From the NCBI GenBank assembly GCA_964017185.1, contig OZ024870.1, forward strand, positions 26,187,621 to 26,251,620: a stretch of DNA of 64,000 nt, given 5' to 3'. Made by a program: the position numbers and the translations under genes. Below the pieces are notes generated by a model. That model did no database searches and was not told the DNA's origin. It saw nothing but the letters and a program-made list of their open reading frames with translations. The DNA comes from Rugalucina vietnamica (lineage: Eukaryota > Mollusca > Bivalvia > Lucinida > Lucinidae). Shown here piece by piece: positions 2,524 to 63,530 of the stretch (position 1 is the stretch's first letter; each line of letters starts with the position of its first letter).

Positions 2524-2785
2524 ATTACAACAAAATAATTAATATGCCTACTGTTGGTCATATTCACAACAAAGTGTGAAAGAAGTAGGATGTATACTTT
2601 CTTTTGCCTCTCGGTATATATTCTAAGATGATATAAAACATTTAATGGATGAACCTTTTTGGTTACTCACTCACAGTCCCTGATACAGAATGTAGCGTTA
2701 TTAGCAGCTGATTTTCAGCAGTGGGTCCAAAATTTCGGTAGACAGGGTTCAAATTTCATTTTTTTCAATTTCATCTAATGTAATT
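2524..2785. other. unannotated spacer
   Basis: About 260 bp of AT-rich sequence between the LINE tail and the first palindromic MITE. I see no coding potential or repeat ends. Confidence 0.5.
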
Positions 2786-3021
2786 TGAGCCGTCTCGTGG
2801 GAAAACCAACAATGTGGTTTCCGAACAGGTCCGACACAAACCGGCCTGTACAAGCACAGAAAAGAGCTAGAAGCTTGAAATTTCGGATTTAAGTAGAAGA
2901 GGAATTGTACTATCCGAGTAGCGAAAACAAATGCGCTGATCAGCTTCGCGGTTACCGTGAAGCTGATCTGCGTCTTTGTTTTCGTCTATGCAGATTGTTG
3001 GTTTTCCCACGAGGTGGCTCA
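2786..3021. mobile_element. palindrome-cored MITE, family A
   Basis: Ends are imperfect terminal inverted repeats (TIRs) of about 28 bp: TGAGCCGTCTCGTGGGAAAA at the left and the matching GGCTCA at the right. The core is a near-perfect palindrome around GATCAGCTTCGCGGT flanked by CGAAAACAAA and TTTGTTTTCG. About a dozen copies lie in the window in both orientations. No protein is encoded, so it depends on a transposase from elsewhere. Confidence 0.85.
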
Positions 3022-3082
3022 TTTGGTCTCAAAGTGACAGTGTTTCATGGAACTCCTTTTGTTTGTCTCATACAATGTTATT

Positions 3083-3314
3083 TGAGCAGCGTCATGAGAA
3101 AACGGGACTTTTGTATATGCGAAAACAAAGGCGTAGATCGGCTGTGCAGTAATTGAACAGCTGATCAGCACCTTTGTTTTCAATACATGGAAAGTACAAT
3201 TCCTCCTCTATTGATTTCCAAAATTTCAAGCTTCTAGCCTTCTGTGACTGTACAGGCTGGTTTGTCGGATTTGGTCAGAAACCCCGAAGACCGGTTTTCT
3301 TGTGTCACGGCTCA
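3083..3314. mobile_element. palindrome-cored MITE, family A
   Basis: A second copy in the opposite orientation to the one at 2786. It starts TGAGCAGCGTCATGAGAAAA and ends CACGGCTCA. The core palindrome is degenerate (GGCTGTGCAGTAATTGAACAG). It ends 88 bp downstream of the stop codon of the first receptor exon, so it may lie in that gene's 3' UTR. Confidence 0.82.
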
Positions 3315-3402
3315 TTTATGTACATGCTTAATTGCTTATCCTCTTCCCATAATCTGTTGTCACACATACAGCCTGGTTTGTGTCCACCATAGTAAGAAAT
3401 CC

Positions 3403-4373
3403 CTATTTCAGGTTCAGTATTTCAAGCATCAATGGTTCAATGTCACACGGGTTCACCTGTAGCAAAATCTTTGTATGACAATCATTCAGCTGTTTCATGT
3501 CGGCAATTTTCTGCATTAGTGTTGCAAAATACTCTTGTCCCTTCGTAAAAGAGAACTCGGCCTCTAGATAGTGCTTCAGTAAGACAAGATACTTATCCTG
3601 TATGTTGGAAATCATCTCCTTGTTGCGAACCTCATCGCCGTCAGGATCAAATACCACAATGATCTGAAGCAGAGCGAACAGACCATAATCGTTGGCGGTG
3701 ATTTCTTTCAGGGTGCGGCAGTACTCTGTGTGTAGATCATGAATCTCTCCGAATCCTGTTGTACTTTTCAGTATGCTCGTGGGAATGGTGCCAGTCGGTG
3801 TGACCCAAGCATCGTCCTCTATACTGTAGAAGAACGCCGATCGTAGCAGCAAGGAATTCAGAACTGACGCTTTTAACGCTGCAATCTGATCCTCCTGTGA
3901 GAGTTGCTGGAAATCCTGCATGCGTTTAATGAACTTGATCAATCTTCTCACCGCTACTTCCGACTGGTTTACCAAATCGTTAGCAGAACTGTAGCTATTT
4001 TCTGTAACATTCGGGATCATTTCACCTATTGTACTGGAATATGATTTCTTGAGCTCTTCAAAGAGGACAATTTCTGCGGGGACAAGGGTACGGTACAGGT
4101 TAGGATCTTTCTCCGGCATCACTGCTCCCAGCATCTGTGGGGTTTCCAGGAGATACGAATCTTTCCAGCTTGGTGCCTGTGTCAGGGCCTCGGACAGACT
4201 CGTCAGGAAGGATTCCGAGCCGTAAAACAATCCTGACTGGTCCGGTTGCTGGTCAGTGTCGGACAGGGGCTCTTCTTTGACATTGATCTGATCAGACTCT
4301 GATGACCCCTGAACCCTCTTGCGTTGACGGTTTGCTGCCACCTTCTGCATACGAGCTCGCCGTTCAGTGTCAT
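3403..4373 (-). CDS. nuclear receptor hinge + ligand-binding domain, terminal exon (copy 1)
   Basis: This exon encodes the ligand-regulated part of a nuclear receptor in the NR1I/NR1J (VDR/PXR/HR96) style. A 3' splice site (pyrimidine tract then AG at 4374-4375) opens the exon with two bases of a split codon, followed by DTERRARM and the Met at 4350. Counting from that Met, 1-30 is a basic hinge, helix 1 starts near 91 and the helix 3-5 signature is 131-175 (IKFIKRMQDFQQLSQEDQ). Helix 10/11 is 249-263 and the AF-2 helix 305-312 (EPLMLEIL), which keeps the co-activator glutamate. This is the only copy with the canonical Asp-Gln pair in helix 4. The basic hinge matches sequence that follows the second zinc finger in HR96-like receptors. 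No DNA-binding exon was found within 7 kb upstream. The LBD fold is clear; the subfamily is inference. Confidence 0.88.
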
Positions 4374-4516
4374 CTTAAAAGAGAAAAAAAAAAAAAAAAC
4401 ATAAATAAGAACTTGGATAATTACATGAATAAATTATCACCTATGTCACATATGTACATCTACTTTACAGCTGTCTCAAAATGTTAATCATTTCTGTAAT
4501 AATTAAGACATAGAAA

Positions 4517-4867
4517 TGTAATTGCACAGCTGATAAACGCCTTTGTTTTTCATTCACAGATATAGCTCAATTTTGACCTCTGGCGCATCAAAAGTAAGGC
4601 GAGTACATTAAGTAGCATGTGAAAGGTAAATAAGGACGAAATGCCACAAATGCTCCGTTGGGTAGCACAGATGGTATTTGTACCGTTACAATCTGAATAT
4701 CCTTTCGTGTGCTGCTAAGTAGACTTGTCTGATCATTGGTACGCCAGAAGTCAAAACTAAACAATAGTAGAACCTCTTCTTCTTCAATCTGAAATTTCAG
4801 ACTTCTAGCATTGTGGATGTGTGTTGGACTTCATCTGAACCCCCACGTTTGCTCGTGACACGGCTCA
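4517..4867. mobile_element. family A MITE remnant, split by about 220 bp
   Basis: The core half (GCACAGCTGATAAACGCCTTTG, partly decayed) lies at 4517-4551. The distal half (CTGAAATTTCAGACTTCTAG through GACACGGCTCA) lies at 4770-4867. The intervening 220 bp are unrelated to the MITE. It sits in the intron upstream of the first receptor exon. Confidence 0.6.
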
Positions 4868-5900
4868 CATAACGTCATTGTCACAAAACCCTGTCTTATA
4901 GTGGTCTTCATTATACCCAGGTGTGCAGGTACTGGTCTTAATTTTCATGCATGCCAATTTACTACAGGGTGCAAAGTTGAAACTCTGATGTAAAATCAAC
5001 CCTTCGGAGGACATTCATGAGTTTTATCTCCAGCTTCAATTTTTACTGAAATAAATCTTCCTGTTCAGACAAGAAGAGTAGGCTGCTTCAAGGAGTTTGT
5101 CAACTGATAAGGTTTAAACTAAGCAGTTATCCAGTACAATGTGACCATCCTTTCACAGGGAATTATCCTCACTGAGAGCATTGACAACATTGTAACTGAC
5201 TACACTCCATATGATCTGAAATGTGTTATCAGTAAACTCTAATTCAACAACAAAGTCAAACATTCCAGCAACTACCATTGTAATCATTCACTGAATACTG
5301 AAAATCTTGAAATTTTATGTGACTTTAATTTCGCTAATTATCCATTTCCTAATTATCAACAAGTTCTTGAATTCGCGAGAAGCATTCTTAAAACCTTATG
5401 TAAGTGTTTTACTTGTGAGAACTTTGAATTCTCGAGGCATTGAATTTGCAGAAGTTAGCGAAAATTAAATTCTTGCAAACATTTCTGAACTTAATTAACA
5501 AAACATGTAAAAGCTTGTTTGTTAACTAAAAAGCAGATTCTGCAACAAATATTGAATTGAACACACAGCCATTTTTCTTGGCGTTCACATGTAATGGCAA
5601 TAAGATTAAAAATTTGCATGCACATTGTATGCAAAGTGTTAAAATTCAATCTAACCCATGTATGCAAATTTCCTGTGTGTATTTACATTCACATGAGCAT
5701 TTTTGCCTTCCATATGCAAAGTTGCACTGTCATGACCAGTCATGCAAAAACTTAATGCTTGGAAATTTTGGTACATGGAAATTTGACTGGGATCAAAGTG
5801 GGGTTTGTAGCAAGTACTCGACAAATCATTACATCAAAGTTAGACAAATCCTTAATAACATACTTTACAAGTTCAGTTCATTGTCTTCATCATTTCAAAG
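4868..5900. other. unannotated intergenic or intronic sequence
   Basis: About 1 kb of AT-rich unique-looking sequence. A region rich in ATGCAAA near 5610-5750 gives short open frames with no recognisable motif. I searched it on the minus strand for the four-cysteine pattern of a receptor zinc finger and found none. Confidence 0.4.
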
Positions 5901-6380
5901 TAGGAAAAAAAGTCACAGGAAAATTAGTCACAGAAAAAAACCCTCACAGAGTTGGGTAAGAAAAAAAATGTCACGGGAAAAAAAGTCACAAACATAGAAT
6001 CTTTTTTCTTTTTTCCTATGTTATGTTATAAATGGACATTATTATTTTTATTATTACTAGTACACTGTATTATTAAAATATCTTTGTTTGGGTTGATGTT
6101 TTACATCCTGATTATCAATTTACAATCATGTTGGGATATAGCTATGCTTCCTGAGTACTTAACCAGTTTTCTTGGGGCTTCTTAGAGACTTGCCCAAGAC
6201 AGTTCCTAATCATGTCTTACTTTAAACATAAAAATTCATGTATAAACAGATTGTGTATTTTCTATTAGTTTCTTACTTTTGTGACTTTTTTCCTGTGACT
6301 TTTTTTTCCGTGACTTTATTTTTGTGACTTTTTTTTCCGTGACTTTTTTCCTGTGACTTTTTTTTCGTGACTTTTTTTCT
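5901..6380. repeat. element with inverted GTGACTTTTTT minisatellite ends
   Basis: At 5901-5995 the motif AAAAAAGTCACRGG recurs about five times. At 6281-6380 its reverse complement (GTGACTTTTTTCC) recurs about seven times. The arms face each other across about 285 bp, so the RNA could fold back. Related GTGACTTTTT runs without a partner arm lie at 8381-8450 and 38505-38610. Confidence 0.6.
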
Positions 6381-6709
6381 TTCCAACATTCTTCAGAAAC
6401 ATATCAGATAACATAATTATTATCTCAAAATGTCAGTAAGAAACCTGCTAAGGCCATCTCATTCAAATTGATCTAGTTCTATAGGACATGTAAAACCCCT
6501 AAAATACTAAAAACAAAGGTTCCACTAACCTGACTGAATATATATGGATAATAGATATTACAGTAAAATAATTCGCTTTTATCTGAAACTGGAAGGAAAC
6601 GTGAATCTTATCTACCCCTAGCAACCAGTATTGTCAGGGTCTGTGAAGCTACATTTTGCCTCAATTTTTTGAGTAGTTATGAGAGAAAAAAAAAAAGATG
6701 TCTCTGACA

Positions 6710-6937
6710 GAGCCGCTAAAAACCAACAATCTGAATATGCGAAAACAAAGGTGCAGATCAGCTGCGCAGTAACAGTTACTGCGCATGCGCAGCTGATCAG
6801 CAGCCTTATTTTCGCTACAGGATAGTACAATGCCTCTTTTTTCTAACTCTGAAATTTCAAGCTTCTAGCATGCTTCTGAGGCTGTACAGCCTGGTCTGTG
6901 TCTGACCTGGATTGTTGATATTCTCATGAGAGGGCTT
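6710..6937. mobile_element. palindrome-cored MITE, family A
   Basis: It begins GAGCCGCTAAAAACCAACAA and carries the palindrome as GCGCAGTAACAGTTACTGCGC. The distal half contains TTTCAAGCTTCTAGC and CTGTACAGCCTGGT. The right TIR is decayed, ending near AGGGCTTGTC. Confidence 0.75.
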
Positions 6938-7090
6938 GTCATAGTAATCTTCAGGTTTCTCAATTATCAGGCCATGGTAACTATGGCAACTCATAGAAAT
7001 ACCTTTTATGGAATGTTCTAGAATGAGATCTTTATAAGCAAAAAAAAAAAGTTACAAGATATGAAGTAAATATAAAATGAAGATCTGTGC

Positions 7091-8386
7091 CATTACGGAA
7101 ACGTGCCCATGCAATAAGCACATCTTTTAAATTGTAAAAGTTTAAAATTGTAAATAGGGAGCAAGATGACTGGCTATTTCCACACAAGAGAATCAAGCAA
7201 ATACAATCGTAATGAGTGATGACTCGGCGAGGTGGTTCTAACGAGTACCCACAATCTATGTTTTGGAGCAAAAATAAGTAAAATAGGTATACCCCTGCAT
7301 ACCGCAGTTTTGCTATACAAAGTGGGGTACAAGGGGGTACACATTACGAGGGGAAAGCAAAAAGTTCGTGGACTTTGTCAATAAAATCAAAAGTATATAT
7401 GCGATTTCTCTGAAATTACCGTATGTTTGCGATCAATTTAATACAAACAAACATAGAAAGTTTCAGACAAATCGCTTGATAAATATCGTTTCTATGGCAG
7501 TTTGTTTGATGCGTGTTAGCACTACCCGGAGCACGCCAAGACGTTAACGTCATTTGCCAACGGGTTTTCTGTATATGCTGGCCGAGTCAAAAGTTCCTAT
7601 AAAAACATTATTTCTCATTCGACTTCAAGCAAATTTTCATATATTTATTCCCCATCGGTGAAGGATTACAGTAGAAAGTTTAAGGCAAATCGCTAGAAAA
7701 ATTTAGTATTTATGACAATTTCTGCGACAGACGCTAGGATTATACGGGGCATGCCATGATAGTAAAGTTGTTCGCGTAGTTTTTTGTGCTTACTTGTTGT
7801 TTTTAACAGCTATTTCGTTGTGACTAACACTTTGCACATCATTGAACACTGTTGTATGCTTCAGTTCTGATGTGTCTCTAGCTGTTTGTAACAAATCAGA
7901 CGTTTCTGTAGATTTTATTCGGAAGTCTCGCACAAATTTTATCGATGTGCAAGTTTCCGCCATTTACCAGTAACGTCATTTTACTAAATTTTTGCTTAGA
8001 CTTGTCTTTCAAAAAGTGTCGCTGTAGCGTTGTCTTTCGAATGCGAGAACTGCAATTTCACATTTCAAGCCGAATTACATAATTATCAATATTTCCATAA
8101 TTTAAGGAGATTTAGAAATGACATTTTTTAAAATATTTTTATATTTATAAACACGTAAACAGAGATTTTACGGCATGCTCCGGGGTAGCAAACCCCACGT
8201 GTTTGTCGATGTAATTTGACCAATTAAAAATAAGATTCGACAAATAACATTTCACATGAATGTCAACAATAGACCATTATTACACTTGTGAAAATACAAA
8301 AACAATCGGACGTCAATTATAAAAGTTATTAAGAAAGTCCACGAACTTTTTGCTTTCCCCTCGTACACGGACATGTTTTCGTGATG
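7091..8386. mobile_element. MITE family B, interrupted by a mariner-like element
   Basis: The left TIR is CATTACGGAAACGTGCCCAT at 7091 and the right TIR is ACGGACATGTTTTCGTGATG ending at 8386. The centre holds GGCGAGGTGGTTCTAACGAG and a CCCACAATCTATGTTTTGGA block shared with copies at 12481, 12922 and 38693. A 1017-bp element sits between 7346 and 8364, and removing it restores a continuous family B sequence. Confidence 0.85.
7347..8363. mobile_element. mariner-like non-autonomous element with TA target duplication
   Basis: The TIRs are about 30 bp and nearly identical: CGAGGGGAAAGCAAAAAGTT at the left and its complement AACTTTTTGCTTTCCCCTCG at the right. TA flanks both ends (7345-7346 and 8364-8365), the target duplication of Tc1/mariner transposons. 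No transposase frame is present inside, so it is a deleted derivative. The uninterrupted host sequence, ACATTACACGGACATG, is present at 12733 in a sister family B copy and proves the insertion event. Confidence 0.9.
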
Positions 8387-11323: not shown

Positions 11324-12309
11324 TTACACTTGAAATATCTCTCTCATAAGAGGCTCAATTTTCTCCACAGGAATTTGCTGAGCCATGTCACTTATTACAT
11401 CACCAGTCAATCTTATGTCCTTTAGTTTACCCAAGAGGTAAATAAATAATTTCTTGCCTTCAATGAAATTATATTTTGACTCCAAATAATGTTTCAGAAG
11501 AATCATATAGATATCCTGCACATCTGATAAACGTCGACAATTTGTTGATCCTTCCCCAGCAGCGTTAAACATCAAAATGCACATAACTAAAGCTTGTACT
11601 GGAGTGTCAATGTTTATCTCCCCTGCCATACTTCTACAAAGTTTGATGTACATTTCAATTTTCTCTAAATGATCTTGAAATACTTGTCTAAGAAAGTCAA
11701 CATGTAACGGTAAGCTCCTCTCAAAAATAATGCTTTCACTTCCTACATCGAAAAGACAGGCTCCACTCCAAACTAAACAGCACAACATGTGCTCCTTTAA
11801 ACAAGTTGTCTGAGTTTCAATTGGAAGACTTTTAAACTCTTCAACAGATTTGATAAAACCCACTAACTTTCTAACAGATATTGAAGCCAAATTAAGAAGG
11901 CCATAACTTTCTGACAAATTTTCAACTGAATATTCCATACTCCTACTATCATACTTTTCCGAAAAAGCATTTTCCAAATTGGAAATTTTTGTCTTTTCTT
12001 CCTCGGTTAAGTTTCGCTTTACATCTGAATGGCAGCTTTCAATTTTCTCTTTGACGTCTTTATCTACATTGTCTACATGGTGTTCTGCAGTCACATGAGA
12101 CACAGCCATGCTGCTTTCCTTTTTCCTTCTCGAACAGGCTTCAGTTTCACTAACATTGTAGGAACGACAACCTGATCTTTTAGCCCCAGCTTTCCTACTA
12201 CCCTTTTTGTAGGCACGAAACATTCCAGATTTCTTCGAACAAACTTTACATGTACGTTTCTGTCTATTTTGCACAACTTTAGCCATACGATCTTGTTTTT
12301 GTGACTCAT
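11324..12309 (-). CDS. nuclear receptor hinge + ligand-binding domain, terminal exon (copy 2)
   Basis: The exon opens after TTTACTCTTGCAG (splice AG at 12310-12311) with two bases of a split codon, then ESQKQDRM and a basic stretch VVQNRQKR. The hinge has a CKVCSKKSG segment and later single cysteines, loosely like half a zinc finger but without the second cysteine pair. Helix 1 is marked by LTEEEK, the helix 3-5 signature by FIKSVEEFKSLPIETQ, helix 10/11 by VQDIYMILLKHYLESKY and AF-2 by EPLMREIF just before the stop. The helix 4 Asp of the usual Asp-Gln pair is Thr. About three-quarters of the protein matches copy 3 at 22154; the matching DNA extends about 100 bp into the upstream intron, so these two arose by local duplication. 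Ligand unknown. Confidence 0.87.
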
Positions 12310-12480
12310 CTGCAAGAGTAAACAAAAATGCAGATTAGCATGAGCTGTGCCATGAGAAAACCTGGCTTTACAATGCATGTGTACACAAAACTTCAGATCT
12401 ATGCCCTTGGTTTTATCTATCGTTAAGTGACCTGGTGCATCAGGGCTTCTGATCAACTATGGAACAAACTTGAAGTCCCT

Positions 12481-22153: not shown

Positions 22154-23149
22154 TTAGACTTGAAATATTTCTCTCATGAGTGGCTCTATTTTTTCCACAG
22201 GAATTTGCTGAGCTATTTCATTAAACCTGTAATCAGTTAATCTTATGTCTTTAAGTTTACTCAAGAGGTACGCAAAGAATTTCTTGCTTTCACCATATGT
22301 ATATTTTGACTCAAAATAATGTTTCAGAAGGATCATATAGGTATCCTGCACATTTGATAAATGTCGACGATTTATTAATCCTTCTCCGGCAGGGTTAAAG
22401 ACCAGAATGCACAAAAATATGGCCTGTATTGAAGTGTCAATGTTTATCTTCCCTGCTATACTTTTACAAAGTTCAATGAACATGTCTACTGTGTTTAAAT
22501 GATTCTGAAATACTTGTCTAAGAAAGTCAACATGCAAGGGTAAGCTCCCCTGAAAATATATAGTTTCACTTCCCACATCGTAATTACTGATCGCAATCCA
22601 AACTAAACAGCTACACATGTGTTCCTTTAAACAAGTTGTCTGAGTTTCAATTGGTAGACTCTTAAATTCCTCAACAGATTTGATAAAACTCACTAACTTT
22701 CTAACAGATGTTGAACCTAAATTAAGAAGACCATAACTTTTTGACAAATTTTCAACTGAATATTCAATAGAACCACTTTTATACCTTTCCAAAAAAGCGT
22801 TTTCTAGATCAGATACTTTTGCCTTTTCATCTTCTGTTAAGTTTCGCTTTACATCTGAATGGCAGCTTTCAATTTTCTCTTTGACGTCTTTATCTACATT
22901 GTCTGTAGGGTGTTCTGCAGTCACACAAGAAGCAGCAATACTGCGTTCCTTTTTCCTGCCCGAACAGATTTCAGTTTCACTAACATTGTAGGAACGACAA
23001 CCTAATCTTTTAGCCCCAGCTTTCCTACTGCCACTTTTGTAGGCATGAAACATTCCAGACTTCTTTGAACAAACTTTACATGTATGTTTCTGTCTATTTT
23101 GCACAACTTTTGCCATTCGATCTTGTTTTTGTGACTCATCTGCAAGAGT
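22154..23149 (-). CDS. nuclear receptor hinge + ligand-binding domain, terminal exon (copy 3)
   Basis: The exon opens after TTTTACTCTTGCAG (AG at 23150-23151) in the same phase as the other copies, then ESQKQDRM. Domain order and motifs are those of copy 2: the CKVCSKKSG hinge, helix 1 LTEDEK, helix 3-5 FIKSVEEFKSLPIETQ, helix 10/11 VQDTYMILLKHYFESKY and AF-2 EPLMREIF. Hinge and AF-2 are almost unchanged from copy 2. The segments that line the pocket differ strongly, for example VWIAISNYDVGSET against VWSGACLFDVGSES. The frame continues open through the splice site into the intron, which gives a spuriously longer reading; I trim it at the splice AG because copies 1, 2 and 4 share that junction. 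Confidence 0.87.
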   Translation of the reverse strand, partial: TLADESQKQDRMAKVVQNRQKHTCKVCSKKSGMFHAYKSGSRKAGAKRLGCRSYNVSETEICSGRKKERSIAASCVTAEHPTDNVDKDVKEKIESCHSDVKRNLTEDEKAKVSDLENAFLERYKSGSIEYSVENLSKSYGLLNLGSTSVRKLVSFIKSVEEFKSLPIETQTTCLKEHMCSCLVWIAISNYDVGSETIYFQGSLPLHVDFLRQVFQNHLNTVDMFIELCKSIAGKINIDTSIQAIFLCILVFNPAGEGLINRRHLSNVQDTYMILLKHYFESKYTYGESKKFFAYLLSKLKDIRLTDYRFNEIAQQIPVEKIEPLMREIFQV

Positions 23150-23572
23150 AAAATAAAAATCCAGATTAGCATGAGCTGTGCCAAGACTACTAGTATTACA
23201 ATGTCTTTGTAAAGAAATGTTCAGAGATGCCCTTATAGGTAAGGCATCTGGCTTCAATCCTTCCATCTGGTATCTGTCAATAATTTCAAAGGTCTGCTGC
23301 CAAGCAGTGAGGTTGGTGGTTTTGGTATAGGACATTGTTATAGTTGGAGGGAACTAATAATCACTTGTTGTTGTCTGATAGGTTAAGAACTCTTGTTCCA
23401 ATAGCCACTTCTGCTTCCCTGAGGAGAATCAAATATGAGGTCAGAAAGTTCTCTCGTTTTGTCCGATTTACATTTTGTGTAATGAAAATACACAGTCTTG
23501 TAAAATTCAGCATTGCCTTCATTGCGAAAAGTAAATTTGACATAACAGGAGAATTTTCTGGCGCCTCGTATA
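23150..23572. other. intron-proximal sequence upstream of copy 3
   Basis: The first 100 bp match the region upstream of copy 2 (AGATTAGCATGAGCTGTGCC). The rest has no recognisable exon or repeat. Confidence 0.45.
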
Positions 23573-26189: not shown

Positions 26190-27271
26190 TTACTTTATAT
26201 CATAAACTTCCTGCAATAGAGGCTCTACAGTTGCTGGGTTAATCTCGTGCAAAACAGCTAGCATTGCAGCACTACACTCTTTTACTTCTTGAATCTTTTG
26301 CAGCAGATATCCATACATCTTACTGCTATCACTAAATGGTAATGTTGACTCTAAGTAATGTTTTAAGAGAATAAGATACTGATCCTGGATATTTGAAAGA
26401 TGACGGCGCATCAACAGCTCTTCACCATCAGGACTAAACACAAGAATCATTTGGAGAATGACATGAAGTTTGGAATCACTAGGTATTTCCTTCTGTGTGT
26501 CTTTACAAAACTTGATAAATCTTTCTGCAACATCAGTGTGCGATGAAAAGGCTTCAAGGACTAGGACTTCATGAGTAGATCTGCCCAACGCGTCAAAGGT
26601 ACGAGATGTAGGATTGAAGGTGTAAACGGATCGCAGCACAGAGGTAGAGAGGAGATGAGCTTTCAAGCATGCAGTCTGTGTGTCCATCGACAAACTTCTG
26701 AACTCATCTATTGTCTTCATGAATTTTACATAGTCATTGACAAGATATAAAGAATAGTTTATTAGTCCTTGGAGAGAAGACACATCTATATCCATATCTA
26801 CTACTGTTTCTGAATTAACAACATAGCGTAGGAAATTTTCATGTATGTGTCCTAATTTCACTTCCTCCTCGGCTGTCAGAACACGCTGTATTCTAGTTGT
26901 GGTACCATCCTTCTCCTTTGTTTTGGAATCCACACTTGTTCCCTGATCATTATTGTCAAGAGAAGCAACAGGAATATTTGATTTGCCTTTTGCAGCAATA
27001 TTTGATTTGCTTTCCACACCAACATTATATTTGCTTTCCGCATCAACATCAGACTTGCTTTCCACATCAACATTATATTTGCTTTCCACACCAACATTAG
27101 ATTTACTTTCCACACCAACATTAGATTTGCTTTCCACACCAGTATTTGATTTGCTTTCCACAACAGTGTCATTAACTCTGCTACATCCAGCTATGCCATG
27201 TTTTGCTGTTTCTGCAGATCGCTTTCCACTGGCTACTTTTCTTGTTTTCCTTCTATTTTGACTCAAGTCAT
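26190..27271 (-). CDS. nuclear receptor hinge + ligand-binding domain, terminal exon (copy 4)
   Basis: It opens after CTTCTTCTAATTTGCAG (AG at 27272-27273) in the shared phase, then DLSQNRRKTRKV. The hinge carries about eight imperfect copies of an 8-residue unit (VESKSNVG type) that separate the basic segment from the LBD. Helix 1 is marked by LTAEEEVK, helix 3-5 by VKFMKTIDEFRSLSMDTQ, helix 10/11 by IQDQYLILLKHYLES and AF-2 by EPLLQEVY. The co-activator glutamate is kept and the helix 4 Asp is Thr as in copies 2, 3 and 5. A polyadenylation-like AATAAA (complement of 26170-26175) lies about 15 bp after the stop codon, which fits a terminal exon. Confidence 0.87.
26972..27167 (-). repeat. 24-bp coding minisatellite in the copy 4 hinge
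   Basis: About eight units of 24 bp, each a variant of GATTTGCTTTCCACACC plus ACA, GTA or TCA, encode the repeated ESKSN hinge. Unit length is a multiple of three, so length changes keep the frame. On the other strand the same repeat gives an apparent frame rich in LLSTPT that has no support as a gene. Confidence 0.9.
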
Positions 27272-27489
27272 CTGCAAATTAGAAGAAGAGCCTTATTTTG
27301 CTTCCAATTTTGACATTTTTCCACTAACTGACTACTGCTCTTCTTAAGAGAAGGCAAAGAATTAGGGGATATGCTATTAGCTAAGGTGGGTACAGATTGG
27401 CAATTGTGCAGGTGAGGATACAGATAAGAAATAAAATAGAAAGGTTTGATCCTTTGGAAGCAATAAAAACATTCAAAGGGATATAGTAT

Positions 27490-27535
27490 GGACTATATTG
27501 CGCAATTTCGGGTAATGAACCCTCATCAGTAGCCC
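27490..27535 (-). ncRNA. hammerhead ribozyme, type I, intact (copy A)
   Basis: Read on the minus strand: stem I GGGCTA, then CTGATGA, stem II GGGT-TTCATTACCC region (four pairs, five-base loop), then GAAA, stem III ATT-GCGC-AAT, the unpaired A, and stem I TAGTCC. All catalytic core bases are present. Stem I forms six pairs, one of them G-U. Cleavage is predicted after the A complementary to 27496, giving an AUA triplet, which is allowed. The very short stem III is typical of ribozymes in retroelements, which may work as dimers. Confidence 0.85.
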
Positions 27536-27888
27536 TTTTTAAATCGGCAATGAAAGCCAGACTAATGTACTGCAATTTCGAAAATTAACAAGAGAAGTCT
27601 AAATCAAAGACACATTCCTGAATGGGATCAAATAATTTAAACATTGCTTAGAAGTATGTTTCTAAACATGAGTGTTTTGAACACTCTGAATATCTGATCT
27701 CAAAGGACCTAAATAAATATCTGAGTGATCTCAAAGGACCTAAATAAAATATAATCTGCACTATGGATGATGTACAAGGAGACTTTTTAGGGCCCCCACA
27801 TGGCACAACACCAGCTGCAGTAATAGCAAATAAAATATAAAGGTTTGATCCTTTGGAAGCAATAAAAACATTCAAAGGGATATAGTAT

Positions 27889-27934
27889 GGACTATATTGC
27901 AAAATTTCGGGTAATGAACCCTCATCAGTGGCCC
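27889..27934 (-). ncRNA. hammerhead ribozyme, type I (copy B)
   Basis: Same core as copy A: CTGATGA, the four-pair stem II and GAAA are unchanged. Stem III is ATT-TTGC-AAT. In stem I the second base next to the core is C instead of T, giving one C-A mismatch. Predicted cleavage lies between the complements of 27895 and 27894. Stem III has changed in the loop but keeps its pairs, which supports selection on RNA structure. Confidence 0.82.
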
Positions 27935-28275
27935 TTTTAAAACCGGCAACGAAGGCCATAAGCAATGCTACTACTATACTGGTGGTTCACTGAAGATAAT
28001 GATAGCTAAAATTATCAACTGTACCTTTAGAGGCACCCCTTATTCATATAAAAGTCAAGCCAAAAAAGTATACCAGTCCTATTCATAAACTGTACATGTA
28101 ATGATTTGGAAATTTTCTTTTGATTTTTACAAACAATAATTTTCTATTTCAGAATTTTCAGCAAGTTTTTGAATGTGAGAGCTAGTATTTGTGCAGTCTA
28201 TAAAGCTTAGAGTCATTAACAGCAAAAGTTTAAGGAATTCCACAGATTCCCTAACTTACAGTAATTTGACATAAA

Positions 28276-29238
28276 CCGTTGGAGGATCAAAGGTCCTGTA
28301 AACGCTCACCTTAGCTCCGCTTTATATACCAATAAACATGTTTGAATATTATGGTAAATATAACCCCACTGCAGGGGGAGATGAAGCCTTGGGGTCATAT
28401 TTTTTTTTTTAAATTATCATTATTCTGTCCATTTGCCAATTTCATGTAAATTTTCCCGGGGGGCTTTAGATGACATTTTAACAGTTTTTCCCCTTCCAAT
28501 TCACAGGTTACCTAATGCTGACCTTGCCATAAAATAGATCAAGGTCATCACAGAAGAGGGTCATGATTTATAAATGTATTGTAGTACTCTAACTTGTTCC
28601 TGAAGCTTCATGCAAAGTTTCCTTGAAATTGGTTCACCTGTTCTGGAGAAGATTTTTTGTGGAGAGTTTCTACCATATATGGGCATTACAGTCATTTTGG
28701 TAATGTGGCCTGGATTATTTATTAAAACATTGGTTCCCCCTTCCTATAAGCTTCATATTAAATTGACTATGACTGGCCCAAGTGGTTTCAGAGAAGATCT
28801 TTGAATATTATGGCAAAATATACATGTCCTTTACCCCAAGGAAGGCTAATCCTTGGGGTCCAAATATTTTCAGAATCATGTATCTGCAGTTTATTTGACC
28901 ATTTCCTGCAAGTTTTCCCCGTCAAATGACCTTTCACTGTTTCCTCATTCAAATACATGGGCCACTTATGGTGACATTCCCATAAAACAGGTCAATGTCA
29001 TCACAGCGTAGATTTATGGGTACAATGTAGTACTCCAGTCACCAATGCTACATGCCAAATTTCGTTGAAATCGATCCACCGTTTCCTGAGAAGATTTTTG
29101 AAGGATTTTTACCATATATGGGCATGGCAGTCATTTTGGTCGTGTGACCTGGATTATTTATAAAAACATTAACCCCCCCTCCTTATAGATCAAGTAAAAT
29201 TTGGTTTTGATTGGCCATGCAGTTTCAAAGAAGATTTT
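28276..29238 (+). mobile_element. large hairpin-ended repeat, family 1, 3' truncated
   Basis: It starts CCGTTGGAGGATCAAAGGTC followed by CTGTAAACGCTCACCT. It holds two internal units, each with TGACCTTGCCATAAAA, TTTACCATATATGGGCAT and a TTGGCCATG(C)-type end. It lacks the 3' hairpin because the next copy begins directly. Confidence 0.75.
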
Positions 29239-29240
29239 TG

Positions 29241-32200
29241 ACCAGAGGACCAATGGTCCTGTAAACGCTCACCTGAGATCTGCGGCATATACCAATAACC
29301 CCTGTGCAGGGGCAGTCATCATGGAGCACTTGGGCCATTTTTTTTTTTTTTTCAGAATATTTTCTGCTGGCTTTTCCCTTCAAATGACATTTTAACAGTT
29401 TTTCCCATTCAGATGCATGGGCAACACATGTCGACTTTGCCATAAACTCGGTCAAGGTCATCACAGGGTCATGATTTATATAAACATTGTAGTACTTTAG
29501 CCATCGATGCTTCACGCCAAGTTTAATTGAAATCAGTCTATTGGTTTCAGAGAAGATTTTTGAAGGGTTTTTACCATATATGGGCATGGCGGCCATCTTG
29601 GTCATGTGACCTAGATTATTAATATACACATTGGTTCCCCCATCCTATAGATGCTTCACATAAAATTTGGCTTTAATTGGCCAAGTGGTTTCAGAGGAGA
29701 AGATGTTGGAAATATGGAAATATACATGTATATTGCCCCGGGGTGGGGGCATATGAGCCCCTGGGTCCATTTTGTTTTCAGAATCATTAATATTCAGTCC
29801 TACTACCCATTTCCTGCAAGATTTTCACCTCAAATGACTTTTTAAAAGTTTTCTCCATTCAAATGCATTGGCGACCTATGTTGACCTTGTCGTTAAATAG
29901 GTCAAGGTCACCGCAGGGTCATGATTTATATATACATGCCAAGTTTCTTTGAAATTGGTCCACTGGTTCTGGAGAAGAAAATTTTTGAAGGGTTTTTACC
30001 ATAAATTATATGGGCATGGCGGCCATCTTGGCCATATAAAATTTGAATATTATGGTAATACAGTTGAACCTGCGTTAAGAGACCACGCAGGGGAAGCAGT
30101 AAAAGTGGTCTCCTATGACAGATGGTCTCTAAAGCCAGGCTTCCAAAATTTGGGAAAAATTAGAAAGATCGTCTCAGGTCGCGAAAATACATTACAATTC
30201 CGATTTGTCTCTTAAGAACTCATAGTCAATCAATTGCCTCTTTGTATCGTCTTTGTTTTAGTATATCCCACCCCTAGTGAGATATTATTATCCAAACTAA
30301 ATTATTCCGGTGTATTTAAGTCCATTCAGTCCTCATTGTGTTTGTTTACATGAACCAAGGCAAGTCGCTTATTGTATTGAAAATTTTTATCGCTTATTGT
30401 ATTGAAAAAATTGTAAGGTATGAATTACCAAAATATCGGCAAACAGTGAAATCCCACCTTTCGTTGACATCAGCATACTAACAAGCCTTTGGAACAGGTA
30501 AAGTGTCTATGTGATGTGGATGATAGTGGATGAAGTGTATTGGGTAAAACTCACAGGTACATATGGAATATGTGAAGCGAGTGTGTAACACACGCTTAGC
30601 TTGTTTCACAGTTTGCATTCGCATTACGGTCTGCTAATCAGCTAGTGATTAAAATCATTTACCCTTATTGTGGAGTTGAAATCGTTGAAGTGTGATAATA
30701 ATCAAACGTTGATTTGGTGTCAGATAGATAATTGGTCAACGTTTCAATTGATGTTTTGATTGGAATACAAATGTGACACTGTGACGATCTCAGTTAGTTA
30801 CACAATAAAATATAGGAGATATAGGAAATAAATGAGTGAAAACACAGTAGCAGGTTAAGATTAAAGGAATGCGACACAAATATTTTTAGATAACATGTTG
30901 TTGTTGTTTATTTTGTTAATGAATGAAACGAAGAATGGCTGCCTTATAACACCTCCCTGGCGGAAACCACAATAATTAAGAAAGTGACACAAACATTTTT
31001 TTTCTTTTTAATTCTATTGTTTACAATATCATTTCAATGTAAGCATGGTTGCTTACTGCAATAAATCTGCCAGCTGAGTGGAACTATACCGCAAGTCATT
31101 GTTGCAATTTTGCATAATCCGCCATTATCGTCGCTAATATCGGTCGTTTATTGCGACGAAAATGACCGTTTTTCTTGTTATTTTAGCAGTTGTTGGTCAC
31201 GTTAGGCAGGAAATCGCTTAAGAGAGGTCAATTAACATAGAAAAACGCTCCGGAGGATCATATTGTGGTCGCTTACAACAGGAAAACGCTAAAGACAGGT
31301 GGTCGCTAGGCCAGACTAGACTGTATGCATGTATAATGGCCCCATGTTGGGGCAGATGAGTCCCTGGGGTCAAATTTTTTCAGAATCATTAATATTCAGT
31401 CCAACCGCCCATTTCCTGAAAGACTTTCACTTTAAATGACATTTTAAAAGTTTTCCCCATTCAAATGCACTGGCGACCTATGTTGACCTTGCCGTAAAAT
31501 AGGTCAAGGTCATCACAGGGTCATGATTTTTATATACATTGTAGTACACAAATCATCGATATTCCATGCCAAGTTTCATTGAAATCAGTCCACTGGTTCC
31601 AGAGAAGAAGATTTTTGAAGGGTTTTTACCATTATATGGGCATGGCGGCCATCTTGGTCATGTGACCTGGATTATTTATGTACACATTGGTTCCCCCATC
31701 CTATAGATGCTTCACATAAAATTTGGCTTTGATTGGTTAGAAGATGTTTGAATATCATAGTAATATACATGTATATTGCCCTGGGGTGGGGGCATATGAG
31801 CTCCTGGGGTGCAATTATTTTCAGAATCATTGATATTCAGTCCTACAGCCCATTTCCTGCAAAATTTTCCTTTTAAATGACATTTTAAAAGTTTTCCCCA
31901 TTCAAAACATAGGCGACTTGTGTTGACCTTGCCGTACACTAGGTCAAGGTCATCACAGAGTCATGATTTATATATACATTGTAGTGCTAGAGCCATCAAT
32001 GCTTCATGCCAAGTTTCGTTGAAATCGGTCCACCGGTTCTGGAGAAGAAGATTTTTGAAGGGTTTTTACCAAATATGGCCATGGCGGCCATCTTGGTCAT
32101 GTGACCTGGATTTCTTATATATACATTGGTTCCCCCTTCCTATAGATTCTTCATATAAAATTTGGCATTGGTTGGCCAAGCGGTTTCAGAGAAGATCTTT

Positions 32201-33018: not shown

Positions 33019-34885
33019 CCAGAGGACCAATGGTCCTGTAAACGCTCACCTGAGATCTGCTACATATACCAATAAACATGTTTGAATATTATGGTGTTTA
33101 GCCCCAGTGCAGGGGCAGATGAAGCCCTTGGGCCATTTGTTTTCAGAATAATCAATATTCTGTCCATTTGTCAATTTCTAGTTTATTTATTCCCTTTAAA
33201 TGACATGTTAACAGTTTTCCCCATTCAAATGCATTGGCAACCTATGTTGACCTTGTCGTCAAATAGGTCAAGGTCACCACAGGGTCACGATTTATATACA
33301 CATTGCAGTACTTTAGCCATCAATGCTTCATGCCAAGTTTCTTTGAAATCAGTCCACCGGTTCCGGAGGAAAAATTTTTTGAAGGGTTTTTACCATATAT
33401 AGGCTATAGGCATGGCGGCCATCTTGGTCATGTGACTTGGATTATTTATATATACATTGGTAACCCCATCCTATAGATGCTTCACATAAAATTTGGCTTT
33501 GATTGGCCAAGTGGTTTCAGAGGAGAAGATGTTTGAATATTATGGAAATATACATGTATACTGCCACGGGGTGGGGGCATAGAAGCTCCTGGGGACCAAT
33601 CTTTTTCAGAATCATTAATATTCAGTCCTACTGTGCATTTCCTGCAAGACTTTCACTTTAAATGACATTTCAAAAGTTTTCCCCCATTCAAATGCACTGG
33701 CGACCTATGTTGACCTTGCCGTAAAATAGGTGAAGGTCATCACAGGGTCATGATTTATATATACATTGTAGTACTTTAGCCATCGATACTTCATGCCAAG
33801 TTTCGTTGAAATCGGTCAACCGGTTCTGGAGAAGAAGATTTTTGAAGGGTTTTTACCATGTATGGGCATGGCGGCCATCTTGGTCATGTGACCTGGATTA
33901 TTTATGTATACATTGGTTACCCCATCCTATAGATGCTTCACATAAATTTGGCTTTGATTGGCCATGTGGTTTCAGAGGAGAAGATGTTTCAATATTATGG
34001 AAATATACATGTATATTGCCCCGGGATTGGGGCATATGAGCCCCTGGGGTCCATTTTTTTTCAGAATCATTAATATTCAGTCCTACTGCCCATTTCCTGC
34101 AAGACGTTCACTTTAAATGACATTTTAAAAGTTTTCCCCATTCAAATGCATTGGCAACCTATGTTGACCTTGCCGTAAAATACCGTATTCGTTCTAATTA
34201 GCGCACATGCTCTAATAAGCGCACACCCCGGTATTTTCTGAAAAACATATGCATAAGCGCACACTGCTTGAATAGTATATTGGTATTTTACACGAATTCC
34301 ACACATTAATACCGCATTAGAGGCATTAAAACTGAACCTTAAATGATCGAAAACTACTTTCAAACAATTTGAATACTTGAATGACATAACCATTGATAGA
34401 TTTGACGTTGTTATTTAAGCATTTTGATGAGTAGTTTTCCTTCATAGTGTGCGCTAATTAGAACGGTATTTTGTTACCTTAACTTTAAGTTATTTTGAAA
34501 AGTTAACCGCACTGTGCGCTAATTAGAACGAATACGGTAGGTCAAGGTCATCACAGGGTCATGATTTATATACACATTGTGGACCTTGAGTCCCTTATGC
34601 TACATGCCAAATTTCAAGATCCTAGGCCTTTGGGTTCTGGAGAAGAAGATTTTTGAAGGGTTTTTACCATATATGGGCATGGCGGCCATCTTGGTCATGT
34701 GACCTGGATTATTTATATACACATTGGTTCCCCCTTCCTATAGATGCTTCATATAAAATTTGGCTTTGATTGGCCAAGCGGTTTCAGAGGAGAAGATCTT
34801 TGAAATTGTGGACGGACGGACGACGGATGGACGGACGGACGCCGGATCATGGCCATCCTATAACCTAACGGCTCAGGTGAGCTAA
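33019..34885 (+). mobile_element. large hairpin-ended repeat, family 1, with nested MITE
   Basis: Starts CCAGAGGACCAATGGTCCTG and ends CTAACGGCTCAGGTGAGCTAA. Three internal units. Between the GCCGTAAAA and GGTCAAGGTCA parts of the third unit lies a 355-bp MITE at 34183. Confidence 0.8.
34183..34537. mobile_element. MITE with perfect 24-bp TIRs and TA target duplication
   Basis: The left end CCGTATTCGTTCTAATTAGC plus GCAC is exactly the complement of the right end. TA flanks both ends (34181-34182, 34538-34539) and the host repeat GTAAAATAGGTCAAGG is restored on excision. Two more partial copies of the GTGCGCTAATTAGAACG motif lie inside near 34450 and 34220. Perfect TIRs point to recent activity, in a Tc1/mariner or pogo-type system. 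Confidence 0.92.
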
Positions 34886-43456: not shown

Positions 43457-46056
43457 CCAGAGGACCATTGGTCCTGAGAACGCTCACCTGAAGCCTGATC
43501 TTGGAGTATTAAGTCATAATGAAATGACCTTGACCTTGAATACTCACACACCTTTATTGACTTCATAAGTTGTCTGCATCTGCAAAGTTTCAGGTCTCAG
43601 GCTGCAATAGTTTCCAAACCCAGTGATTTCTGAGAAAACCACAATTTTAATTTTGATATTTAAATGACCTTGGGCCAAGGTCAAGTCATGACCTTGGCCT
43701 TCATTAATTACTTACCTTCATTGACTCCATTAGTTGTCTGCATCTAGCAACTGTCAGGTCTCAGGCTGCAACAGCTGTTTTCGCCTTTTCCCATGTGAAA
43801 GCCTATGTTTCCAAAATTGACCTTGCCGTAAAATAGGTCAAGGTCATCATAGGGTCATCATTTCAACAAACTATGATGGGCTGGAGTCCCAAATGCTACA
43901 TACCAAGTTTCATGAAAATTGGCCTGCCGGTTCTGGAGAAGAAGATTTTTGAAAGGTTTTTACCATATATGGGCGTGGTGGCCATCTTGGTCATGTGACC
44001 TGGATTTCGCGATCAAACTTTCGTCTCCCCTACCCATGGATGCTCCACATAAAATTTCACTTTGATTTGCCAAGCAGTTTCAGAGAAGAAGATCTTTGAA
44101 AAGTGTGTATGGACAACAGACTGGCCAAGGTCAAGAGATGACCTTGACCTATATTAATCACATACCTTCATCTACTCCATTAGTTGTTTGCATCTACCAC
44201 TTTTCAGGCCTCAGGCTGCAATAGTTTTTAAAAAATCCATAGTTTTCACTTCTTCCTATGTAAAAGCCTATGTTTCCAAATTTGACCTTGCCGTAAAATA
44301 ATTCAAGGTCATCCAGGGGTCATCATTTTATCAAACTATGATGGGCTGAGGTCCCCGATGCTACATACAAAGTTTCGTGGAAATCGGCCCACCAGTTCTG
44401 GAGAAGAAGATTTTTGAGTAGTTTTAACCATATATGGGCGTGGCGGCCATCTTGGTCATGTGACCTGGATTTCGCGATCAATCTTTCGTCTCCCCTACCC
44501 ATGGATGCTCCACATAAAATTTCACTTTGATTGGCCGCGCAGTTTCAGAGAAGAAGATCTTTGAAAAGTGTGTATGGACAACAGACTGGCCAAGGTCAAG
44601 AGATGACCTTAACCTATATTAATCACATACCTTCATCTACTCCATTAGTTGTTTGCATCTACCACTTTTCAGGCCTCAGGCTGCAACAGTTTTCAAAAAA
44701 TTCCATAGTTTTCACTTTTTCCTATGTAAAAGCCTATGTTTCCAAATTTGACCTCGCCATAAAATAGGTCAAGGTCATCCAAGGGTCATCATTTTATCAA
44801 ACTATGATGGGCTGAGGTCGTTGATGCTACATACCAAGTTTCGTGGAAATCGGCCCACCGGTTCTGGAAAAGAAGATTTTTGAGTGGTTTTTACCATACA
44901 TGGGCGTGGCGGCCATCTTGGTCATGTGACCTGGATTTCGCGACCAAACTTTCGTCTCCCCTACCCATGGATGCTCCACATAAAATTTCACTTTGATTGG
45001 CCGCGCAGTTTCAGAGAAGAAGATCTTTGTAAAGTGTGTATGGACAACAGACTGGCCAAGGTCAAGAGATGACCTTGACCTATATTAGTCACATACCTTC
45101 ATCTACTCCATAAGTTGTTTGCATCTACCACTTTTCAGGCCTCAGGCTGCAATAGTTTTAAAAAAATCCATAGTTTTCACTTTTTCCTATGTAAAAGCCT
45201 ATGTTTCCAAATTTGACCTTGCCGTAAAATAGGTCAAGGTCATCCAAGGGTCATCATTTTATCAAACTATGATGGGCTGAGGTCCTTGATGCAACATACC
45301 AAGTTTCGTGGAAATCGGCCCACGGGTTCTGGAGAAGAAATTTTTTGAGTGGTTTTTACCATATATGGGCGTGGCGGCCATCTTGGTCATGTGACCTGGA
45401 TTTCGCGATCAAACTTTCGTATCCCCTTCCCATGGATGCTCCACATAAAATTTCACTTTGATTGGCCAAGCAGTTTCAGAGAAGAAGATCTTTGAAAAGT
45501 GTGTATGGACGACAGACTGGCCAAGGTCAAGAGATGACCTTGACCTATATTAATCACATACCTTCATCTACTCCATAAGTTGTTTGCATCTACCACTTTT
45601 CAGGCCTCAGGCTGCAATAGTTTTCCAAAAATCCATAGTTTTCACTTTTTCCCATGTAAAAGCCTATGTTTCCAAATTTGACCTTGCCGTAAAATAATTC
45701 AAGGTCATCCAGGGGTCATCATTTTATCAAACTATGATGGGCTGACATCCCCGATGCTACATACCAAGTTTCGTGGAAATCGGCCCACCGGTTCTGGAGA
45801 AGAAGATTTTTGAGTGGTTTTTACCATATATGGGCGTGGCGGCCATCTTGGTCATGTGACCTGGATTTCGCGATCAAACTTGAAATGCCACTACCCAAGG
45901 AGGCTCCACATAAAATTTCAACTAGATTGGCCAAGCGGTTTCAGAGAAGAAGATCTTTGAAATTGTGGACGACGACGGACGACGGACGACGGACGAACGC
46001 CGGATCATGGCTATCCTATTAGCTCACCTTGTGAGCCTTCGGCTCAGGTGAGCTAA
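43457..46056 (+). mobile_element. large hairpin-ended repeat, family 2, five tandem internal units
   Basis: It starts CCAGAGGACCATTGGTCCTG and ends in the hairpin CTCACCTTGTGAGCC TTCGG then GGTGAGCTAA. A block with ATATATGGGCGTGGYGGCCA recurs at about 43970, 44430, 44890, 45355 and 45815, a period near 460 bp. Each unit carries TTGACCTTGCCGTAAAATAG and CACTTTTCAGGCCTCAGGCT. The last 60 bp before the hairpin are a GACGACGGAC microsatellite. No protein is encoded. Confidence 0.85.
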
Positions 46057-48535: not shown

Positions 48536-49578
48536 TCACTCTTTATTTACTTCAAAAAGTTCCTTTGCAAATGGAGCCAACTTATCTGCTCCCATGTTTG
48601 CTATAATTTCTTTTCTTTCAGTTGCCACTTGTTTCATGAAGTTGAATTTTTTCAAGATAAGAGCAAAGTATTCCTTTCCTTTGGCAAAAGAATATTTCGC
48701 TTCAAGATAATGTTTCAACAGAATGTGATACTTGTCTTGCAGATTGGACATATTAGTACGCTGGCCAACATTATCCCAAGCTGGATAAAAAACGATAACC
48801 ATCTCAAAGATTGCCATTAAACTTGGGTCTTTAAACACTTCTGTTTGCATTCCTAAGAAGATGCTCACCAATTTTTCAGTAGTTTCTTTATATACAGTAA
48901 AAGTTTTCTTGAACTCCTCTAGAGAGATTTTGATATCATATAGAACAAGATTGTTTTCTTTGGTGTCATAGGTATAGGCGGCTATTATCATAAGACAGCA
49001 TCGTATGCAAGCCTTCAATGACTTTATTTGTGTATCAATATCCAAACTTCGGAAGTCCTCAACGGTTTTGATGAATTTTAGAAACATCTTAGCCCAGGTC
49101 ATGGCTATTGTATTGTAAATACCATCCATATGAGCCACTGCAGCCGCTATCTCACAATGATCGTGATCTGACTTGCAAGGAGTCTCCACTGCCGTTCGAA
49201 AATTCTTTTCAAGTGTTTCAATGATTTGTTTTTCTTCTTCAGTTAAAGTACGGAAAAGACTCCAACTTGATGTACCATTATTTGTGTCTAAAGGCTGCTG
49301 TACAAAGGCAGTACCACCTGGCAAATTACTTGGACTTGTCTGTGAGAGAAAAGGACTCATTGCTCCATGATATGGTTGATTAAGATTCAAATGTCCAGGG
49401 TATGACATATTCCCATTCAAGCTCCCCTGCCCTGGGGGATTGAGGTTACCCATAGGAAACAAATGACTGGCCTGGGGAGATTTCTCTTGCTTCATTGTCT
49501 GAGCAGGGTGATGTGGCTGATGGAGCTGCCGTTGTGTCAAGGCTTCATTCATTAGCCTAGCTTTCTGATGTCTGTACT
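48536..49578 (-). CDS. nuclear receptor hinge + ligand-binding domain, terminal exon (copy 5)
   Basis: It opens after CTCTTCCGTATAATTCCAG (AG at 49579-49580) in the shared phase, then YRHQKARLMNEALTQRQ, aligned with RARMQKVAANRQ of copy 1. The hinge is long and rich in Gln, Pro, Asn and Gly (about residues 20-105), unlike the other copies and reminiscent of activation-type disordered regions. Helix 1 is marked by LTEEEKQ, helix 3-5 by FLKFIKTVEDFRSLDIDTQ, helix 10/11 by LQDKYHILLKHYLEAKYSF and AF-2 by FAKELF. AATAAA overlaps the codons just before the stop (complement of 48541-48546) and might serve as polyadenylation signal or be chance. This is the most upstream copy in gene direction; no DNA-binding exon is seen in the 14 kb beyond it. 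Confidence 0.88.
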
Positions 49579-49690
49579 CTGGAATTATACGGAAGAGCAA
49601 CGTTGAATACCATGAGATCTAAAATCACAGTATTTGGAAATTTTGGATGTCATCGTATTGCCAAAACATCAGAACATTCTGTTCCTCAAG

Positions 49691-63189: not shown

Positions 63190-63530
63190 GGGTCGTCTGT
63201 AATGCTTTGCCAGTTGTGGACAAAGTGGGCCAATCTTCCTCCTACCGGAACTTGGGGTAGAGGAAGGGGCAGTGGAGAGACATCTTCAGTGTTTCTTAGG
63301 GGCAGAGGCCCCTCCACGAGAGGGGGCACCTCTGCCTCTGTAGCTGGAGCCTCTGAAAGAACTGCCTCTACGGCCACCGCGGCCAGATTGAGGGGGTATT
63401 TTGCTAACCTCAGTAGTCGAGGACTCTGTCTTCTGAGGAGCAGGCTTCTTTTTAGGAGGCTGAGCGCTACGCTTGCCTGAAACATTAGCAGACTGCTGTG
63501 ATTTAGGTTGTTGGGACACAGCGTTGTCAA
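62304..63530 (-). CDS. reverse transcriptase of the DIRS-like element
   Basis: The recognisable RT starts near 63290, after the gag stop. Motifs are GFYSRIFIVPKKNGKSRLII, the DLTDAYLHVPIH block with the first catalytic Asp, ALAFGLSTSPFVFT and YLDDW with the Asp pair at 62652-62657. A TAG at 62304-62306 ends the frame at the start of RNase H. Upstream of 63290 the frame overlaps gag and is Leu/Pro-rich, probably not translated or entered by frameshift. Confidence 0.87.
   Translation of the reverse strand: MTTLCPNNLNHSSLLMFQASVALSLLKRSLLLRRQSPRLLRLAKYPLNLAAVAVEAVLSEAPATEAEVPPLVEGPLPLRNTEDVSPLPLPLPQVPVGGRLAHFVHNWQSITDDPWVLSIIRRGYLIPFSEPPPMSEVPIFFNQSKDSRLEEEVANLLLKGAVEKIDPVSPGFYSRIFIVPKKNGKSRLIIDLSPLNKYVCVQNFRMEAQRKVRNAIYPNDWAFSLDLTDAYLHVPIHKQSHKFLRFSLNGQIFQFKALAFGLSTSPFVFTYLMNVIATFLRKRAIILHPYLDDWLARNQCRRTLLEHRHYLMSLITSLGLIINYEKSELVPTQTFTFIGMEFLTNLNLVRVPQDRIQKILQAILVFSQETFVSARTFLSLLGQLNAAADHVVLGRLHLRPLQTYLLSL

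Follow-up and report, generated by a model that had tools for sequence, protein, structure and literature searches.

In a 64,000-nucleotide stretch of DNA from the bivalve Rugalucina vietnamica (contig OZ024870.1, positions 26,187,621 to 26,251,620; hereafter the window), a non-coding repeat of approximately 1.4 head-to-tail units runs along the minus strand from its 5' end at 27958 to its 3' end at approximately 27429 and carries two type I hammerhead ribozymes. The locus is an ordinary copy of an element type already known, the metazoan non-LTR retrozyme. We consider it probable that this non-autonomous element was moved by a cycle in which a borrowed reverse transcriptase copies a re-ligated RNA circle. 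Copies of the family have in common a 3' end that lies downstream of the ribozyme cut by approximately 67 nt, their 5' ends are scattered around the unit, and this combination may be new as an insertion footprint.

Two direct repeats of 136 bp (27424–27559 and 27823–27958) showed 93% identity without gaps at an offset of 399 bp, in agreement with the repeats of about 130 bp described in a first-pass annotation. A structural scan, which required CTGA-N-GA, a stem II of at least 3 pairs, GAA, a stem III of at least 3 pairs, H17, and a stem I with at least 5 of 6 pairs, found two sites on the minus strand of the window, none on its plus strand, and no motif on either strand of 200 Markov-1 simulated windows. 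The parts of the motif were stem I GGGCTA/TAGTCC, CTGATGA, stem II GGGT/ACCC, GAAA, and a stem III that retained three pairs in both copies in spite of its different loops (GCGC in copy A, TTGC in copy B), as the annotation had noted. Cleavage is predicted after A17, and the predicted cuts lie 399 bp apart, as had been claimed. Hammerhead A (27490–27537, core at 27529, cut at 27496/27495) paired at 6 of 6 positions of stem I; hammerhead B (27889–27936, core at 27928, cut at 27895/27894) paired at 5 of 6, its stem I strand being GGGCCA with one C-A mismatch, so that of the two ribozymes reported as intact, only copy A fully deserved the description. Since stem I is the open stem, the hammerheads are of type I and not the type III of plant LTR retrozymes. 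A covariance-model search, which the annotation had proposed as a check, did not recover the ribozymes: no Rfam family reached its gathering score anywhere in the window, the best match over the motif in 27300–28100, RAGATH-1-hammerhead on copy A, scored 18.4 bits (E 2.7) where 56.3 would be required, and no Rfam hammerhead matched copy B up to E 10.

The predicted unit-length RNA between the cuts (27496–27894, minus strand) would be 399 nt long with a low GC content of 0.348. Folded as a circle, it gave a calculated minimum free energy of -91.2 kcal/mol (z -2.5, better than 100 of 100 shuffles) with 61% of positions paired. Isolated 136-nt pieces folded no better than shuffles and preferred other pairings in one-stage folding, and in 63-nt pieces the ribozyme structure was less stable than the piece's own minimum by 2.7 kcal/mol for A and by 2.4 kcal/mol for B. 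The reference unit, at locus L021, was 374 nt; the window unit is longer mainly because of a 23-bp direct repeat with an offset of 31 bp (27695–27748, minus strand), found by repeat comparison, of which the reference unit has a single copy. The longest stop-to-stop frame overlapping the element was 112 aa, consistent with the earlier statement that no protein gene lies between the cuts, and the 263 bp between the repeats held no gene for a reverse transcriptase with GIY-YIG. The DNA of a 535-nt stretch had no match in phage records, and the ribozyme pattern had 0 matches in viral contigs and 0 in prokaryote genome contigs.

The annotation had likened the repeats to terminal repeats. They were instead the part that is present twice in a head-to-tail copy of 1.4 units and enclosed no body, and 21 neighbouring unit pairs had spacings of 359–399 bp, within the 150–450-bp repeats given, together with type I hammerheads and a low GC content of less than 50%, for metazoan retrozymes in the main text of Cervera and de la Pena (2020; PMC7229834). 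The identification as a retrozyme was upheld by the type I hammerheads, units of approximately 374 nt, low GC, absence of a sizeable frame, many copies, stem I covariation, and GIY-YIG genes in the genome; judged on its sequence, the locus was supported as fitting the metazoan non-LTR retrozymes of PMC7229834 in all features examined. The same text describes mussel retrozymes with 350–390-bp units, approximately 5000 copies, and dimers to multimers, and proposes that they are moved by LINEs or Penelope-like elements. The family described here resembles them in hammerhead type, unit size, low GC, many copies, multimers and Penelope-like elements in the genome, whereas its unit sequence is the genome's own as far as compared. 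Cleavage and circles were measured in mussel, whereas at the present locus they are predicted from the sequence. Plant LTR retrozymes, which have type III hammerheads, LTRs, and 600–800-nt circles according to PMC7229834, share with this element the lack of coding capacity and the placement of hammerheads in repeats; they differ from it in hammerhead type, and the circles that are a feature of the plant elements are predicted here. Hammerheads are also reported from schistosome satellite-like elements (PMC8490949). The main text of PMC7229834 does not describe a common 3' end with 5' truncation ("truncat" gave 0 matches), and no paper on such ends was among those listed by a literature search.

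The core plus stem II had 2504 exact matches in the host genome (1.09 Gb, 47 contigs) and the exact 32-nt tail had 1215 genome-wide, with 0 matches for the reversed control of the former and for the control of the latter. For analysis of covariation, 62 distinct motifs from the window and L009–L068 were reduced to 51 by removing 5 false regex hits, 2 motifs with indels, and 4 that were identical after trimming. L041–L068 had been sampled by the core plus stem II, so that conservation there is uninformative and stem I was free to vary. In the 51 motifs, 94.9% of cells were paired, as compared with only 18–49% when the structures were slid along the alignment. Changes on both sides of a pair occurred in 18 cells against 7.0 in shuffles, a number reached in 0 of 500 shuffles, and the number of column pairs with such a change (3) did not exceed that in shuffles. 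Columns 7/44 were U-A in 31 motifs, C-G in 13, U-G in 2, and unpaired in 5. Judging from this alignment, stem I is kept in divergent copies by compensatory changes.

Constraint on the core within single copies was considered and rejected, because the core decayed as fast as the rest of the unit. Differences from the majority amounted to 50/709 in the core and 813/11204 in the rest of the unit (p 0.94) in tail-sampled copies, and to 31/522 and 599/8384 (p 0.33) in regions unselected by core. The free core position N7 was split between T (37) and C (15). Among 50 copies of at least 110 nt, 35 of 38 ribozyme-like 48-mers were intact, but the 38 had been chosen by a loose core regex. These sequences may be read as the products of source elements that kept the ribozyme, varying where variation is permitted, and of single copies that drift.

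The ends of the copies were mapped in two samples. The first, selected through matches to the 136-bp repeat or to the core, comprised 73 copies after exclusion of the array at L009, of L043 (the same place as L040), and of elements that were shorter than 50 nt or lay at the edge of a locus. In 53 of these 73 copies the 3' end lay 62–70 nt past the cut; in the other 20 it lay 8 to 305 nt past it, which partly reflects mapping limits. For the second sample, 60 regions were taken from a list of 100 tail matches to contig C1, and all 60 were retrozyme copies. For 24 of these (L069–L092), places neighbouring listed core matches had been skipped, which enriched them for short copies; for the other 36 (L093–L128), only already-sampled and tandem places were skipped, with no core-based selection. 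Of the 31 3' ends that lay inside the region in L093–L128, 21 were at 66–67 nt, 9 at 68–74, and 1 at 90; because the tail pattern forces the 3' end to 66 or beyond, the evidence is the sharp drop after that point. The 5' ends of the same regions were uniform (n = 32, KS p 0.80), and 27 complete copies included none of 70 nt or less and 7 above one unit. When all 60 regions were taken together, 39 of 51 3' ends were at 66–67 nt, the 56 5' ends gave KS p 0.23, and 6 of 47 complete copies measured 60–70 nt, all six from the biased 24 regions, where the 5' ends were non-uniform (KS p 0.011). In the window, the end point corresponds to TATTTTATTT (27429–27438, minus strand), placed from the 3' ends of genomic copies and the likely start of reverse transcription.

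Run-off of the reverse transcriptase at the ribozyme cut was suggested by 5' ends near the cut (L013 at 3351, L022, L028, L051, and L063) and by four copies of 68–70 nt, and was rejected. The L013 end was discounted as part of a duplicated region with a repeated 3' flank, most of the near-cut ends actually lay upstream of the cut by 2–4 nt, and all four short copies came from L069–L092, the regions biased to short copies. After removal of the selection bias no 5' peak remained at the cut (0 of 32 ends at -4 to 0 in L093–L128). L013 itself holds two copies (1830–2468 and 3351–3789) with an identical 3' flank and unlike 5' ends, which suggests a duplicated region that was later altered. No convincing target-site duplications were found in 25 elements when compared with mismatched flanks, the lone candidate being a 24-nt imperfect pair at L022. 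A target preference was also set aside: YA followed TATTTTATT in 41 of 94 distinct junctions against a background of 14.5%, but this excess is confounded by the T that comes next in the unit itself; CA alone, free of that doubt, followed in 18 of 94 against 6.7%. Just upstream of the common 3' end, a possible hairpin CCTTTG/CAAAGG could be read from the sequence (27451–27479, minus strand). In an alignment of 59 of 66 tails (7 tails without the anchor motif were dropped), its first arm CTTTG was kept in 57–59 of 59, and the anchor partly forces the second arm; the arms showed one-sided changes only and no covariation in the aligned tails.

Neighbouring units within one copy were 95.7% identical as compared with 89.7% between loci, and rare variants were common to neighbouring units in 8 of 21 pairs against 2.4%, whereas the nearest unit was the neighbour in only 21 of 42 tests. 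Such private variants would fit one ring read for more than one lap, with homogenisation of arrays as an alternative source. From the observed anatomy of the ribozymes, the size of the family, its covariation, the 3' end that copies have in common, their scattered 5' ends, and the shared private variants, we infer the following cycle of cleavage, ligation, and priming, with a circle as template and a donor enzyme. A head-to-tail copy would be transcribed, its type I hammerheads would cut the RNA into monomers, and a host RNA ligase would close these into circles. Next, a reverse transcriptase supplied by a LINE or a Penelope-like element would start, probably primed from the nicked target, at one fixed internal site, TATTTTATT, approximately 67 nt downstream of the re-ligated cut and just beyond the hairpin, and would copy either part of the circle or more than a full lap before stopping at random. 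A fixed start and a random stop would explain why copies share the 3' end, have scattered 5' ends, and range from approximately 60 nt to several units. With a start approximately 67 nt past the cut, the enzyme would reach the end of a cut linear monomer after approximately 67 nt; copies longer than this would therefore require RNA that was re-ligated at the cut or never cut. The common 3' end thus suggests that reverse transcription begins at one internal position, on either a re-ligated circle or an uncut multimer.

The second of these templates, an uncut multimeric transcript of the same retrozyme, would make the ribozymes irrelevant to mobility, and we regard it as rather unlikely. Multi-unit arrays such as that at L009, with 15 units, do occur, and a Penelope element was moved in vitro without needing hammerhead cleavage, according to PMC11167929. 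On the other hand, the rare variants shared within single copies would be unexpected in transcripts of unlike units, and homogenised arrays would show them too. The L009 array (1626–7249) advances in steps of 371–382 bp; it stops after an integral number of units, not at the common 3' end, and may indicate another route of array making.

The donor may belong to either proposed class. GIY-YIG genes of the Penelope type were plentiful in the host genome, 150 of 451 candidates having been scored, with long open frames; autonomous Penelope-like elements were assigned from the GIY-YIG domain. For RVT_1, 150 of 22218 first-look candidates in the genome were scored. At C15:425918–437860, four GIY-YIG matches in 3893-bp steps, three of them in 964-aa frames, formed a head-to-tail Penelope-type array. 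Penelope-like elements carry minimal type I hammerheads without a proper helix III, and an internal start of reverse transcription is described for one of them (PMC7761336 and PMC11167929, the latter for the internal start). They are like the retrozyme in hammerhead type, in partial head-to-tail copies, and in the internal start proposed here, and unlike it in encoding a reverse transcriptase and GIY-YIG.

A derivative of such an element, in which the repeats would be pseudo-LTRs and the coding body would have been lost, was judged very unlikely. Type I hammerheads are indeed known from Penelope-like elements (PMC7229834 and PMC7761336), and a minimal hammerhead with a GCGC loop was found in 1 of 8 regions downstream of GIY-YIG genes. 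This motif (L131:1425, contig C5, on the GIY-YIG sense strand approximately 1.4 kb downstream of the domain) has GAAA-GCGC-TA and 5 of 6 stem I pairs; the retrozyme's GAAA-TTGCGCAA-TA is similar but has a longer stem, and the likeness may hint at kinship. However, the interval between the two ribozymes was an ordinary non-coding unit, the same as in other copies, and gave no sign of a lost Penelope body, and the hammerhead of the retrozyme has a three-pair stem III. Moreover, none of the 8 downstream regions, taken from different score groups, contained the retrozyme tail or matched the unit beyond 21 nt (longest shared stretches 11–21 nt, best E 0.33).

Spread as satellite DNA through unequal exchange, in which the hammerhead would be carried along, appeared more improbable still. 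Tandem arrays are present, that at L009 comprising 15.04 units from unit position 320 to 319. Most mapped copies, however, were short and dispersed, with more than one unit in 26 of 73 in the first sample and in 7 of 27 complete copies from the unselected regions, and exchange would not be expected to give a common 3' end with scattered 5' ends.

The nearest gene piece to the element was an open frame that encodes the ligand-binding domain of a nuclear receptor (26190–27278, minus strand), in agreement with the receptor exon annotated nearby. A splice-acceptor-like AG (27273/27272) stands approximately 157 bp downstream of the element, and the retrozyme copy may lie inside an intron of the receptor gene. 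A domesticated intronic ribozyme that controls the receptor transcript, a role with which the shared direction of frame and element and the position of this acceptor would agree, is hardly credible for one copy among thousands whose members drift at the rate of the remaining unit. Five minus-strand frames with this domain were found in the window (3403–4374, 11324–12334, 22154–23353, 26190–27278, and 48536–49618), four above the Pfam cut-off and the 48536 frame just below it. A regex search over the window gave no convincing receptor zinc fingers, and such a search can miss fingers split by introns. Within the 26190–27278 frame, a 24-bp repeat occurs seven times (26996–27162) and is translated as a VESKSNVG-like eight-residue repeat. 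Three stretches, 28282–29500 (which adjoins the retrozyme), 33190–34182, and 43777–45962, hold tandem or diverged repeats whose period is approximately 440–465 bp. A retroelement at 60088–63530 (minus strand) had an RVT_1 match of 71.4 bits and weak matches to RNase H and a tyrosine recombinase (phage integrase); from this arrangement we take it to be DIRS-like or Ngaro-like.

SINEs that borrow the tail of a LINE have a fixed 3' end, 5' truncation, and no coding gene. The retrozyme copies share these three traits, whereas those above one unit point, unlike SINEs, to a circular or multimeric template. Animal retrozymes could be mobilised in the manner of SINEs on ring templates: a borrowed reverse transcriptase would recognise one hairpin and start approximately 67 nt past the cut, closure of the ring would enable useful and over-unit copies, and the ribozyme would serve as the ring-maker. 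We put the chances of this reading at about even; it fits the absence of stubs of 70 nt or less among the 27 complete copies of L093–L128. If it is true, the hairpin would be a clue to the donor enzyme. The conserved sequence before the common start site would make the donor findable by comparing tails, and the model of copying from ring templates would become testable.
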